64,000 nucleotides of DNA from Dehalococcoidia bacterium (lineage in GTDB: Bacteria; Chloroflexota; Dehalococcoidia; Tepidiformales; Tepidiformaceae), in the NCBI GenBank assembly GCA_003104995.1, contig PQAO01000022.1:1-64000 (forward strand), read 5' to 3'. Below, piece after piece: positions 20,275-25,904 of the stretch. Every line of letters starts with the position of its first letter. Within the stretch, counting starts at the first letter, position 1. The position numbers and the translations under genes were made by a program. The notes below the pieces were generated by a model, which saw only the letters and a list, made by a program, of their open reading frames with translations, was not told the origin of the DNA and did not search any database.

Positions 20275-22098
20275 TCAGTAATCGTTGGGAGCGGCTGAAC
20301 CGCCGAGGGCGTCGCGCAACGCGGCGATTCGGGCGCGTTCAGCAAGCAGGTTCAGGATTTCGAGCGCCTCCGAGGGAGTAGGCGTCTCGCCCGCCTCCTG
20401 GATGAGCCGGGTGACCTGGCGGTCGATGTCGCGGATCTGGCGTTCGACCTGGTCAAGGGTGACCGAAGGGCTACCGGCGCCGGGCGTGGGCGTCCTCTCG
20501 CCCTGTCCCGGCCCTGGGGTTGCGGCACCGGGGGTGCCGGCGCCGGGTGTCCCGGACCCCGGAGAGGGCGTGCCATTCCCGTTCTGGCCGTTGCCACCCG
20601 GTGATGGCGTCGCCTGGGGGCCGGGTTGCGTGGGCGATCCTCCGGGCTGGTCGCCGGGCCCAGGTGTGGGAGTGGCGGTCTCTGGCGGTGGTGCAGGGGG
20701 GTAGAGGAGGCGGAGGACCACTTCGTAGTCGTGGCGCGACTCATCGGTGGGGACTTCGAGGAGGGCGCGGCGGAAGGCTTCGAGAGCCTCGGGGAGGCGT
20801 TCGGCGGAGAACTGGTGGTGGCCGATGCTGGCGTAGGCGCGGGCGCGGACATCAGGGCTGTTCGAGACGAGCGCGCGGCGGGCGGAGAAGATCGCCTCAT
20901 CGAAACGGCCGACGGCATGATAGGCAGCGGCCAGGTTGATGGCCACGTTGGGGTCGTCGGGGCGGTCGACCTGCGCCTGGAGGAACTTGTCAACAGCGAG
21001 GGCCGTATCACCCTGTTCGAGGGCTTCGCGGCCGGCTTCGTTGGCCTCGTAGGCGCTCGTTGCGCAACCGGAAAGCAAAAACATTGCGGCCGCCAGCGCG
21101 GCTCCCCGGCGCCAGCCACCGCGACCGATGCGTTCGGCGAGCGCGCCAAGGACCAGCAGCGCGAGGGCGGCGCCGGCGAAGTAGCGGTGGCGCTCGATCG
21201 GTATGGTCGTGGGGCGGGCGTCTACCTGGGCGCGTTCCAGTGCCTGGAGGCGCCCATCGACCACTCCCGGCACGACGGAGAGATCGGAGCCGAGGTAGCG
21301 GCCACCCGCGGCGGCGGCGAGGGCGCGGAGGAACGGTTCGTTGAGGCGCGTGACGACGGGCGCGCCGGACTCATCCCGCAGGGGCTCCTCGGTGCGGGTG
21401 CGGAAGTCGAACACCGGGATCGTGGCACCGTCGGCCGTACCAATGCCGGCGACCAGGAGGTCGGCGCCGGATTCAGCGACGAGGAGCGCGCTTGCGGCGG
21501 AATCCCCTCCGAGGTCGTCGCCGTCGGTCAGCAAGAGAATGACCCGGCCACTGGAGGACTGGCCGGTCAGCAGGTTGACCGCCTCTTCCAGCCCGGGGCC
21601 GGCAGCTGATCCGCCTTCGACGAAGACGACCCCGGTGGCCAGGGACCCGATGACCTGGTTGGCGGCCGCGAAGTCGGTTGTGAGGGGGAAGCGGGTACGG
21701 GCACTGCCGGCGAATACCACGAGACCGACCCGGTCGCCGCCCAGGCGGGCGAGTGTCGCCGCCACAGTATCTTTCGCGGCCTGGAGGCGGCTGGGCGCGA
21801 TGTCACGGGCGTCCATGCTGCGAGAGATGTCCATCACGACGACGAGGTCGGCGCCGGTGCGGGGTACGCGGGACTCCTTCGTGCCCCAGCGCGGCTGCGC
21901 GGCTGCACCGATGGCGGCCACGGCGGCAAGCGAAAACAGAGCCGCCGCCAGGTAGGGCGGGGCCGCACCCCGGACGCGAGAGACGGCGCGGGCGCGTTGC
22001 TCGCCGTGGCGGACGCCCCGGAGCCAGGCTGCGAAGCCGGCGGGCACCACGGGAAGCAGCGCGAGCACCCATGCGTTGGCAAAGGTCACGTCGCTCAT
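20275..22098 (-). CDS. BatB-like VWA protein fused to a TPR (BatC-like) lipoprotein part
   Basis: This 607-aa membrane protein has N-terminal spans (about 7-25 and 48-66), a VWA domain with an intact MIDAS (Asp90-x-Ser92-x-Ser94), and a C-terminal span (about 307-322). A lipoprotein-like signal (LLSGC, Cys345) follows, then TPR-type repeats (about 350-465), a Pro/Gly/Thr-rich linker (467-543) and a final helix. BatB and BatC are usually separate proteins; here they appear joined in frame. It is the last gene of the MoxR-DUF58-BatD-BatA-BatB operon and overlaps BatA by 4 bases. Bat proteins are linked to stress tolerance or envelope assembly. Confidence 0.85.
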   Translation of the reverse strand: MSDVTFANAWVLALLPVVPAGFAAWLRGVRHGEQRARAVSRVRGAAPPYLAAALFSLAAVAAIGAAAQPRWGTKESRVPRTGADLVVVMDISRSMDARDIAPSRLQAAKDTVAATLARLGGDRVGLVVFAGSARTRFPLTTDFAAANQVIGSLATGVVFVEGGSAAGPGLEEAVNLLTGQSSSGRVILLLTDGDDLGGDSAASALLVAESGADLLVAGIGTADGATIPVFDFRTRTEEPLRDESGAPVVTRLNEPFLRALAAAAGGRYLGSDLSVVPGVVDGRLQALERAQVDARPTTIPIERHRYFAGAALALLVLGALAERIGRGGWRRGAALAAAMFLLSGCATSAYEANEAGREALEQGDTALAVDKFLQAQVDRPDDPNVAINLAAAYHAVGRFDEAIFSARRALVSNSPDVRARAYASIGHHQFSAERLPEALEAFRRALLEVPTDESRHDYEVVLRLLYPPAPPPETATPTPGPGDQPGGSPTQPGPQATPSPGGNGQNGNGTPSPGSGTPGAGTPGAATPGPGQGERTPTPGAGSPSVTLDQVERQIRDIDRQVTRLIQEAGETPTPSEALEILNLLAERARIAALRDALGGSAAPNDY

Positions 22099-23030
22099 GC
22101 GGGCGACCTCCTGAGGAGCGTGCCGCGGAGCACCAGCTCGAGCAGGAGGAGGGCGGCAGCCCCGCCGGCGAACCAGGGAGCGAGCTCGGTGAAGCGTTCG
22201 AAGGATTCACGGCTGACGCGGCTGGTTTCGAGGCTGCCGATCTCCTCGTAGACATCCGCGAGCGCTTCGGGGCTGCTGGCGGTGAAGTAGCGCGCGTTAG
22301 TACGTTCGGCGATGTCGCGGAGGAGCGCTTCATCGACCTGGTCGTTGTTGAAGGGGCCGCCGCCGGAAACGACACCGATGGTATAGACGCGGATCTTGAG
22401 GGCGACGGCGAGCTGGGCTGCCTCCTCGGGGCTGATGGAGTCCGCGTTATGTTCGCCGTCGGTCAGGAGGATGACCACCCGGCTGGCGGCGGTAGAGTCC
22501 TGGAGCATGTTGAGCGCGTTGGCAAGGCCGACCCCGATGCCGGTCCCATCGGGCAGGAGGCCGCTTTCGACGCCGGAAATCATGCGGTCGAGCGCTCCGT
22601 AGTCGAGGCTGGGCGGCGAAAGCGACAGCGCGTCCTTCTGGAAGACGACCAGGCCGATCCGGTCGTTCTCGCGCTGCTTGATGAACTCGCGGATGACGTC
22701 CTTCGTGACTTCGAGCCGGGTGGAATTACCGAAGCGCTGCTCCATGGAGCTGGAGATGTCGAGCGAAAGGGCGATATCGATGCCTTCGCCGGGGATGGCC
22801 GCAGTTGCGTTGCCCCTGCGGGGCCCGGCGATGGCAACCGCGAGAGCCACCACCGCGAGCACGCGAAGGACCGGCAGGGCCCGGGCGGCGCGCAGGCGCC
22901 AGGTCGGCTGGATGGCAGCGACCGGCGAGACCGAGGGCACGGAATAGCCGCGGGCGCGGCGGCGGGCGAGCCATGCTACCGGGAGCGCCAGGAGGGCGAG
23001 TGCGAGGGCGGCGGGCAGGGCGAACTCCAT
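22095..23030 (-). CDS. BatA-like VWA-domain membrane protein
   Basis: This 311-aa protein has two N-terminal hydrophobic segments (about 5-22 and 50-68), then a VWA domain with the MIDAS motif DISSSME and the downstream TDGEHN acid cluster, and a C-terminal span (about 290-307). This is the BatA layout. It overlaps its upstream and downstream neighbours by 1 and 4 bases, which indicates tight translational coupling. Its likely partner is BatB in a periplasm-facing complex; the client is unknown. Confidence 0.88.
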   Translation of the reverse strand: MEFALPAALALALLALPVAWLARRRARGYSVPSVSPVAAIQPTWRLRAARALPVLRVLAVVALAVAIAGPRRGNATAAIPGEGIDIALSLDISSSMEQRFGNSTRLEVTKDVIREFIKQRENDRIGLVVFQKDALSLSPPSLDYGALDRMISGVESGLLPDGTGIGVGLANALNMLQDSTAASRVVILLTDGEHNADSISPEEAAQLAVALKIRVYTIGVVSGGGPFNNDQVDEALLRDIAERTNARYFTASSPEALADVYEEIGSLETSRVSRESFERFTELAPWFAGGAAALLLLELVLRGTLLRRSPA

Positions 23031-23932
23031 CAGGCGCTCTCCTCGACGATTTCGCGTGCCATGGTGAGGTCGGCCTGGCGCCGCTCGGCCGCGGGGCGGT
23101 AGCCGGCGTAGATGACGGCATCACACTCTTCGAGGAGGCCGCCGACCAGGCGCGCCTGCCAGCGGTCAACGCCCCGATCTTCGAGCCGCCGTCGCAGTTC
23201 GTTGCTGGTGAGGGCGGTCGCGCGCAGGTTGTAGCGGCGGGCGAGCTCCGTCTTCACCACGGAGGACATGACGCGGTAGGCGGAGACCGGGTCGGAGTCA
23301 ATGACGGCTTCGGCGGTCTGGAGACCTGGCAGCTCCTGCACAACCGCGGGGCGGGCGACGACGGGGCGCGGACGCCGCATCCAGCGCATCACGAGTACCC
23401 AACTGAGCACACTGAACAGCGCAACTCCCAAGACTGCGCCAGCAGCGATGGCCGGGCGCAAGAATGGCGATTCGGCGCCCTCGATGGCGACCGGGGGAAG
23501 CAGCGGCGTAAGCTCCAGCGGGTCGTCAGGGCCGAGCGCCGGGAGGACGGTGAGCGGGACCGCGGGAAGCGTGCGGGTGGTGACTTCGGCCCCCGACACG
23601 ATGACGACGGTCGGGGCGAACGCGATATCACCCGGCAGGAGCGGCGCGACCTTCACCTCGAAGATCCAGAGCGATTCGGCGCCGCGGGTGACCACCGACG
23701 GGGAGGCTGTCGTGACAAGTTCGACGCCGGCCCACGACGGTGTGCCAGGGGTGATTTCGACGACGGTCCCGGCGGGGGCAGTCACGCGGATGGTGGCAGA
23801 CAGGTGCTCGCCGAGGAGCGCGGATGCGCGGCGGAGTTCGACCCGATCTCCCTCGGCGGACTGTGCTGCGACGAACGTCACCGGGACCAGCCCGGCATAC
23901 GCCAGGAGCAAAACCATGAGGGCGCTTCGCAT
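23030..23932 (-). CDS. BatD-like/DUF4381-type membrane protein
   Basis: This 300-aa protein has a signal peptide (about 1-23), an extracytoplasmic beta-sandwich (25-150) resembling BatD (oxygen tolerance) domains, a membrane span (about 163-181), and a cytoplasmic helical tail (DSDPVSAYRVMSSVVKTELA onward). It sits in the usual place between DUF58 and BatA, with a 1-base overlap on each side. Its assignment rests mainly on context and topology rather than on conserved residues. Confidence 0.7.
   Translation of the reverse strand: MRSALMVLLLAYAGLVPVTFVAAQSAEGDRVELRRASALLGEHLSATIRVTAPAGTVVEITPGTPSWAGVELVTTASPSVVTRGAESLWIFEVKVAPLLPGDIAFAPTVVIVSGAEVTTRTLPAVPLTVLPALGPDDPLELTPLLPPVAIEGAESPFLRPAIAAGAVLGVALFSVLSWVLVMRWMRRPRPVVARPAVVQELPGLQTAEAVIDSDPVSAYRVMSSVVKTELARRYNLRATALTSNELRRRLEDRGVDRWQARLVGGLLEECDAVIYAGYRPAAERRQADLTMAREIVEESA

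Positions 23933-24914: not shown

Positions 24915-25904
<990 letters not shown>

Follow-up and report, generated by a model that had tools for sequence, protein, structure and literature searches.

What is a lipoprotein-like signal doing in the middle of a polytopic membrane protein? This is the question raised by a gene found in a stretch of 64,000 nucleotides of DNA from a Dehalococcoidia bacterium (hereafter the window), in which a BatB protein continues into a TPR part of the BatC type within the same open reading frame. Lipoprotein signals are outlined in PMC8048626 as N-terminal elements made up of a basic n-region, a short hydrophobic run, a small residue and a cysteine. All these parts occur here in that order, but well inside the translated protein instead of at its N-terminus, the cysteine being residue 345. 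An initial annotation, which gave no strand for this minus-strand ORF, had described the gene as BatB fused to a TPR lipoprotein, and the segment around Cys345 as an internal lipobox scar left by the fusion.

Gene and domain organization

The fusion gene closes a block with the order MoxR, DUF58, BatD-like (by position), BatA-like and BatB, and its ATG overlaps the stop codon of the upstream batA-like gene as ATGA. The parts of the fusion and its neighbours are:

20275..22098, minus strand: BatB-BatC fusion ORF, 607 aa, 62.6 kDa
21898..22074, minus strand: N-terminal span pair, residues 9-25 and 48-67 (our own boundaries, from sequence)
21427..21849, minus strand: VWA domain, residues 84-224 (Pfam VWA_2 and VWA above cut-offs)
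21136..21189, minus strand: third span TM3, residues 304-321 (model helix 305-326; entropy 1.39 bits)
21106..21135, minus strand: basic loop ERIGRGGWRR, residues 322-331, putative n-region of the internal signal (R330 in 34 of 36 relatives)
21067..21105, minus strand: hydrophobic run GAALAAAMFLLSG, residues 332-344, putative h-region (model helix 329-343, pLDDT about 60)
21064..21066, minus strand: Cys345, putative lipobox cysteine (LSGC), invariant in 36/36 aligned relatives and 100/100 fused homologues
20704..21057, minus strand: BatC-like TPR domain, residues 348-465 (Pfam TPR_1 and TPR_2, NCBIfam TPR_BatC_Lepto below cut-off, model)
20461..20703, minus strand: Pro/Thr/Gly-rich linker, residues 466-546 (pLDDT below 50 over 475-544)
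20302..20457, minus strand: C-terminal helix pair, residues 548-599 (predicted structure)
22095..23030, minus strand: batA-like VWA gene, upstream, without cysteine (Pfam and NCBIfam)
23030..23932, minus strand: BatD-like gene by position only, with an N-terminal hydrophobic segment
23932..24897, minus strand: DUF58 gene (Pfam)
24915..25904, minus strand: MoxR-type AAA ATPase gene (Pfam)

In the fusion protein, TM1, TM2, VWA and TM3 are followed by the basic loop, then by a short hydrophobic run with LLSGC345 at its end and finally by the TPRs; the junction reads HRYFAGAALALLVLGALA-ERIGRGGWRR-GAALAAAMFLLSG-C345-ATSAYEANEAG. In the predicted structure, helices occupy residues 9-14, 17-39 and 49-67 of the N-terminal span pair, the hydrophobic run (TM4) is weakly modelled, and a TPR helix starts at residue 348. 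Both the sequence of the VWA domain and the fold of the model match 3ibs and 4jdu, two crystal structures of the BatB type; among the 50 rows listed from the fold search, the titles read as BatB, other VWA and TPR structures, some of them being multi-subunit entries with the chain unnamed. Residues D90, S92 and D192, invariant in the 36 aligned relatives, are those that we take to be the MIDAS residues of the VWA. A domain of this kind, with a span pair on its N-terminal side and a further span on its C-terminal side, in an operon with MoxR, DUF58 and BatA, points to BatB. The leptospiral BatB model of NCBIfam, an exception model specific for Leptospira, matches residues 55-270 with 91 bits, under its curated 350. 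As for the TPR part, two Pfam TPR models exceed their cut-offs at residues 385-410 and 419-447, TPR_16 matches residues 355-415 under its own cut-off, and the NCBIfam BatC model covers residues 354-453 (E 6.2e-6) far below its curated cut-off; a TPR domain encoded beside batB is in keeping with BatC. For the gene in the BatD position (23030..23932), no Pfam or NCBIfam match was obtained at the limits used.

Conservation of the junction cysteine

Strings resembling a lipobox preceded by a basic stretch and an uncharged one are frequent by themselves, with 20 of them (the junction included) in the six-frame ORFs of at least 120 aa of this window, and for this reason we relied on conservation as evidence instead. 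Cys345 is kept in all 36 aligned relatives, with pairwise identities down to 27%, and it is the sole invariant column between 266 and 368; the residue at -1 is either G (18) or A (18), and nothing else. The cysteine is just as constant in the larger sample of fused Chloroflexota homologues, which spans 12 family codes (f1, f2, f17, f21, f24, f63, f73, f75, f101, f112, f126 and f128). All 100 proteins show the junction cysteine, identified in each as the one closest to where it should lie (offsets -6 to +3), with a second cysteine within the searched stretch in 4 of them. Position -1 is occupied by A (52), G (37), S (7), I (2) or V (2), that is, by A, G or S in 96 of the 100. The remaining VWA-to-TPR core of these proteins contains 40 cysteines in 47,451 residues, and in 69 of the 100 the junction cysteine is the only one of the core.

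Every fused protein also has an uncharged run, free of R, K, D and E, of 9-22 residues ahead of the cysteine, and at least one R or K within the eight residues preceding this run. The run measures 13 residues in the window protein, 13-18 in 43 fused proteins and 13-16 in 7 stand-alone lipoproteins. A relaxed lipobox pattern fits 89 of the 100, whereas the strict [LVI][ASTVI][GAS]C fits only 42. The length of the uncharged run was also tried as a test of signal versus span and gave no discrimination, the hydrophobic run and TM3 having medians of 16 and 16.

In sequence, the run itself is free to change. Its mean column entropy (residues 332-343) is 2.23 bits, to be compared with 2.06 for the basic loop, 1.48 for the TPR part, 1.39 for TM3 and 1.28 for the VWA domain. 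A run that drifts in front of a cysteine that is kept shows the pattern of a signal peptide, and not that of a packed helix or a scar. The initial annotation was then well founded in reading the segment around Cys345 as a lipoprotein signal with its lipobox, and conservation bears this out. Its notion of a scar, on the contrary, does not survive the comparison, since a relic would decay and the cysteine persists in all 100 fused homologues while the run varies more than TM3, VWA or TPR.

A few proteins depart from the rule. Four members of f17 (L143, L145, L150 and L154) keep the cysteine with I or V at -1 and, judging from this residue, should be cut poorly by LspA, which makes them natural candidates for lipidated but uncut forms. 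In locus L173, from a genome that is 66% complete (G350), the TPR part lies in a different frame from BatB and the hydrophobic run has no cysteine; it may be a split or frameshifted homologue, produced either by a sequencing error or by a real loss.

Separate batB and TPR lipoprotein genes in relatives

The initial annotation had proposed to look in relatives for separate batB and TPR lipoprotein genes, and these do exist. We found them in 10 genomes, where the TPR gene begins with a lipoprotein-type signal. The claim of a BatB fused to a TPR part also holds, the latter being of the lipoprotein type in some relatives. Seven of the ten pairs belong to f56/f92 (L073-L079). In these, batB stops just past the third span, the TPR gene comes next and begins with what looks like a classic lipoprotein signal (e.g., MKRTPAIVSTGLLLVALTGC), and stop and start overlap as ATGA in 7/7. 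The other three come from genomes of the class to which the window belongs (G474, G424 and G447). As in the window fusion, the TPR part of the separate Chloroflexota pairs (L073-L079 and L167-L169) is found by the fused-form profile and is preceded by a lipobox-type cysteine; unlike the fusion, it has its own start codon and its signal is N-terminal.

A tree of the BatB part made by a quick method, with weak deep forks and long branches meeting, relates the fused and separate states by 6 changes, L173 and L174 included. In the latter, one of the 12 rows counted as separate, the lipobox lies in another frame, which looks like an assembly frameshift. With two probable assembly breaks set aside we estimate around 4 changes. 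Repeated switching of this kind would be expected if the products of the two arrangements were equivalent.

A putative preproprotein and its alternatives

We consider it likely, with some reserve, that the gene encodes a preproprotein from which two proteins, BatB and a TPR lipoprotein, arise through lipidation of C345 by Lgt and cutting by LspA. The segment after TM3, made up of the basic loop and the short hydrophobic run, would serve as a lipoprotein signal peptide in an internal position and export the TPR part from the cytoplasm; Lgt would add a diacylglyceryl group to Cys345, and LspA would cut between residues 344 and 345. One product would be BatB (35.3 kDa unmodified), with the VWA domain outside and two C-terminal spans, and the other a membrane-anchored TPR lipoprotein of 27.3 kDa, also unmodified; both would be made one-to-one for a MoxR/DUF58/BatA/BatB assembly. 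Topology, lipidation, cleavage and any function in an assembly are all what we infer. With regard to topology, a positive-inside reading of the basic loops between TM1 and TM2 and between TM3 and TM4 suggests that the VWA and TPR parts are outside, the Arg-rich loop 26-47 between the first two spans being expected in the cytoplasm. A related layout, with a periplasmic VWA domain and three spans, is reported in PMC5700661 for the BatA-like BB0173 of Borrelia. The host appears equipped for such processing: LspA (PF01252) and Lgt (PF01790) give one match each above the Pfam cut-off in the window's genome, and among the 61 genomes searched LspA was matched in 54 and Lgt in 58 (57 above cut-off). 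There is also a precedent for internal cutting of a polytopic protein, that of LtaS by SpsB, as presented in PMC10865820. Against the proposed cleavage count the looseness of the lipobox (the 42 strict matches), the four f17 proteins with I or V at -1 and the missing cysteine of L173. The initial annotation had the TPR part sitting directly after the membrane span, which describes well the fused layout; as the whole outcome, lipidation with probable release seems likelier.

A cysteine lipidated by Lgt in a protein that stays uncut, with the TPR part remaining on TM4 and the lipid as an extra anchor, would be conserved to the same degree as under cutting (36/36 and 100/100), and the four f17 proteins are compatible with this possibility. 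We regard it nonetheless as unlikely, given that the small residues at -1 in 96 of the 100 homologues suit LspA and that relatives have stand-alone forms. It is quite unlikely, too, that TM4 is just an ordinary fourth span whose cysteine takes part in redox reactions, a metal site or an intermolecular disulfide. The name Bat refers to aerotolerance, and a role in redox homeostasis has been proposed for these proteins, but the same paper observed no protective effect of them in Leptospira biflexa (PMC3557215). Moreover, the A, G or S at -1, the drifting run and the N-terminal lipobox of the separate homologues would go unexplained, and among the neighbours in the window BatA has no cysteine, while the BatD-like, DUF58 and MoxR proteins have one each, none of them read as being at the outer membrane face. 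A fusion scar without function would be in line with the presence of separate genes in relatives, and it becomes barely credible when confronted with a cysteine kept in each of the 100 fused homologues.

A different kind of explanation is that the TPR lipoprotein is also translated on its own from an internal start, in which case the signal would be N-terminal after all. For the window gene this is very improbable, as an unusual start codon would be required: no ATG, GTG or TTG lies 15-45 codons before Cys345, and the only starts within 50 codons are those 6 and 4 codons before it. Separate translation from any of these three codons was consequently rejected here for want of a usable start in range. 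The window's gene is one of 15 among the 100 fused genes with no such codon at -15 to -45. Across the sample, an ATG falls within this range in 37 of the 100, against 2-28 in six shifted windows, whereas starts with a Shine-Dalgarno-like string (18/100) stay within the 6-29 of the shifted windows. The excess of ATG is due to the f63/f73 genes (L080, L082-L086 and L090-L105), where an in-frame ATG is present 24-43 codons before the cysteine in 22/22, mostly inside an RRxMPxP-type motif and with GGAG upstream in 5 (L082, L090, L091, L092 and L094); elsewhere an ATG occurs in 15/78. For this lineage a separate start is a possibility to be kept in mind, although a doubtful one, and the ATG may be a remnant of the lipoprotein's own start or possibly still serve as such.

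Comparison with other bacteria and implications

Fusions between BatB and BatC are described in spirochaetes, and in L. biflexa both are fused in one ORF of the bat cluster, as in the window; no mention of a lipobox was met in its description (PMC3557215). Closer in architecture are five proteobacterial fusions compared from among the records matched (Pseudoalteromonas L088, Sinorhizobium L175, Photobacterium L176, Catenovulum L177 and Caballeronia L178), which also combine VWA, TM3, basic loop, hydrophobic run and a TPR-like part in one ORF. Unlike in the window, what closes the run in 5/5 is, as judged by eye, an AxA-type site, with no cysteine there; where L176 and L178 do have a cysteine, it lies upstream, at the TM3 end. 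In Bacteroidota, the BatC of Phocaeicola (L087) is likewise a TPR protein encoded right after batB, but in a separate gene and with a type I-like signal (AFAQ) instead of a lipobox. The BatC of Cetobacterium, again a separate gene, has a plain hydrophobic N-terminus. From these sequences, with eight loci at most outside the phylum, the putative buried signal is of the Cys type in Chloroflexota, where a stand-alone lipoprotein homologue exists, and of the AxA type in Proteobacteria, among which no stand-alone form was met. The case of LtaS of Staphylococcus aureus resembles the one proposed here in that the outer domain of a polytopic protein is set free by a signal peptidase acting at an internal site, and differs in that, according to PMC10865820, the enzyme is a type I peptidase and no lipid is involved.

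Searching the open-access literature, we found neither an internal lipobox nor a case of Lgt or LspA acting on an internal signal; the expression 'internal lipidation', as used in PMC12281620, has a different sense. Tentatively, and with more doubt than confidence, we suggest that some polytopic proteins carry internal signals on which Lgt and LspA work, yielding 'hidden' lipoproteins as C-terminal parts of membrane polyproteins, BatB-BatC being the first example, and that either a type II or a type I signal peptidase makes the same cut depending on the phylum. If this were true, both Lgt and LspA would be able to handle a hairpin that lies within a polytopic protein, one ORF would give rise to a lipoprotein together with an integral membrane protein at a fixed ratio, and hidden lipoproteins would be invisible to predictors that consider only the N-terminus and so be missed in surveys. 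A natural test bed is at hand, as the pair occurs both fused and as two genes, and with Cys-type or AxA-type sites in different phyla.

Genome searches and counting

Four overlapping sets of genomes were searched: 61 relatives, 251 genomes of the phylum, 151 of another class and 245 of the window's class. The count comprises 114 loci, one per genome once repeated loci of the same genome were removed, and these divide into 100 fused, 12 separate and 2 other. The search of the 61 relatives matched 45 genomes, of which 36 gave the aligned loci L001-L036 and 9 were left out as weak or partial matches (G001, G010, G039-G042, G046, G057 and G060). Also left out of the alignment were L037, a fragment at a contig end, and L038 and L039, which duplicate L002 and L003. 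Out of the 49 genomes matched in the phylum-wide set, 18 were counted, 4 of them being in the earlier set too; the rest were 12 VWA proteins with no TPR match in the stretch examined (L061-L072) and 19 further VWA-only rows. All matched genomes of the other class (24/151) and of the window's class (67/245) were counted.

Some loci deserve a separate mention. L170, cut at a contig end and outside the 100, shows the junction cysteine, and L172 has no TPR match and a tail that looks BatA-like by eye. A scan of genome contigs brought up no more than two relatives, with 90% and 87% identity; they are Chloroflexota/Dehalococcoidia MAGs, neither of them new to the analysis. In the genome G030, made up of a single contig of 2.74 Mb (C1), the same gene was matched at both ends (L012 and L037), which is probably an untrimmed circular overlap.
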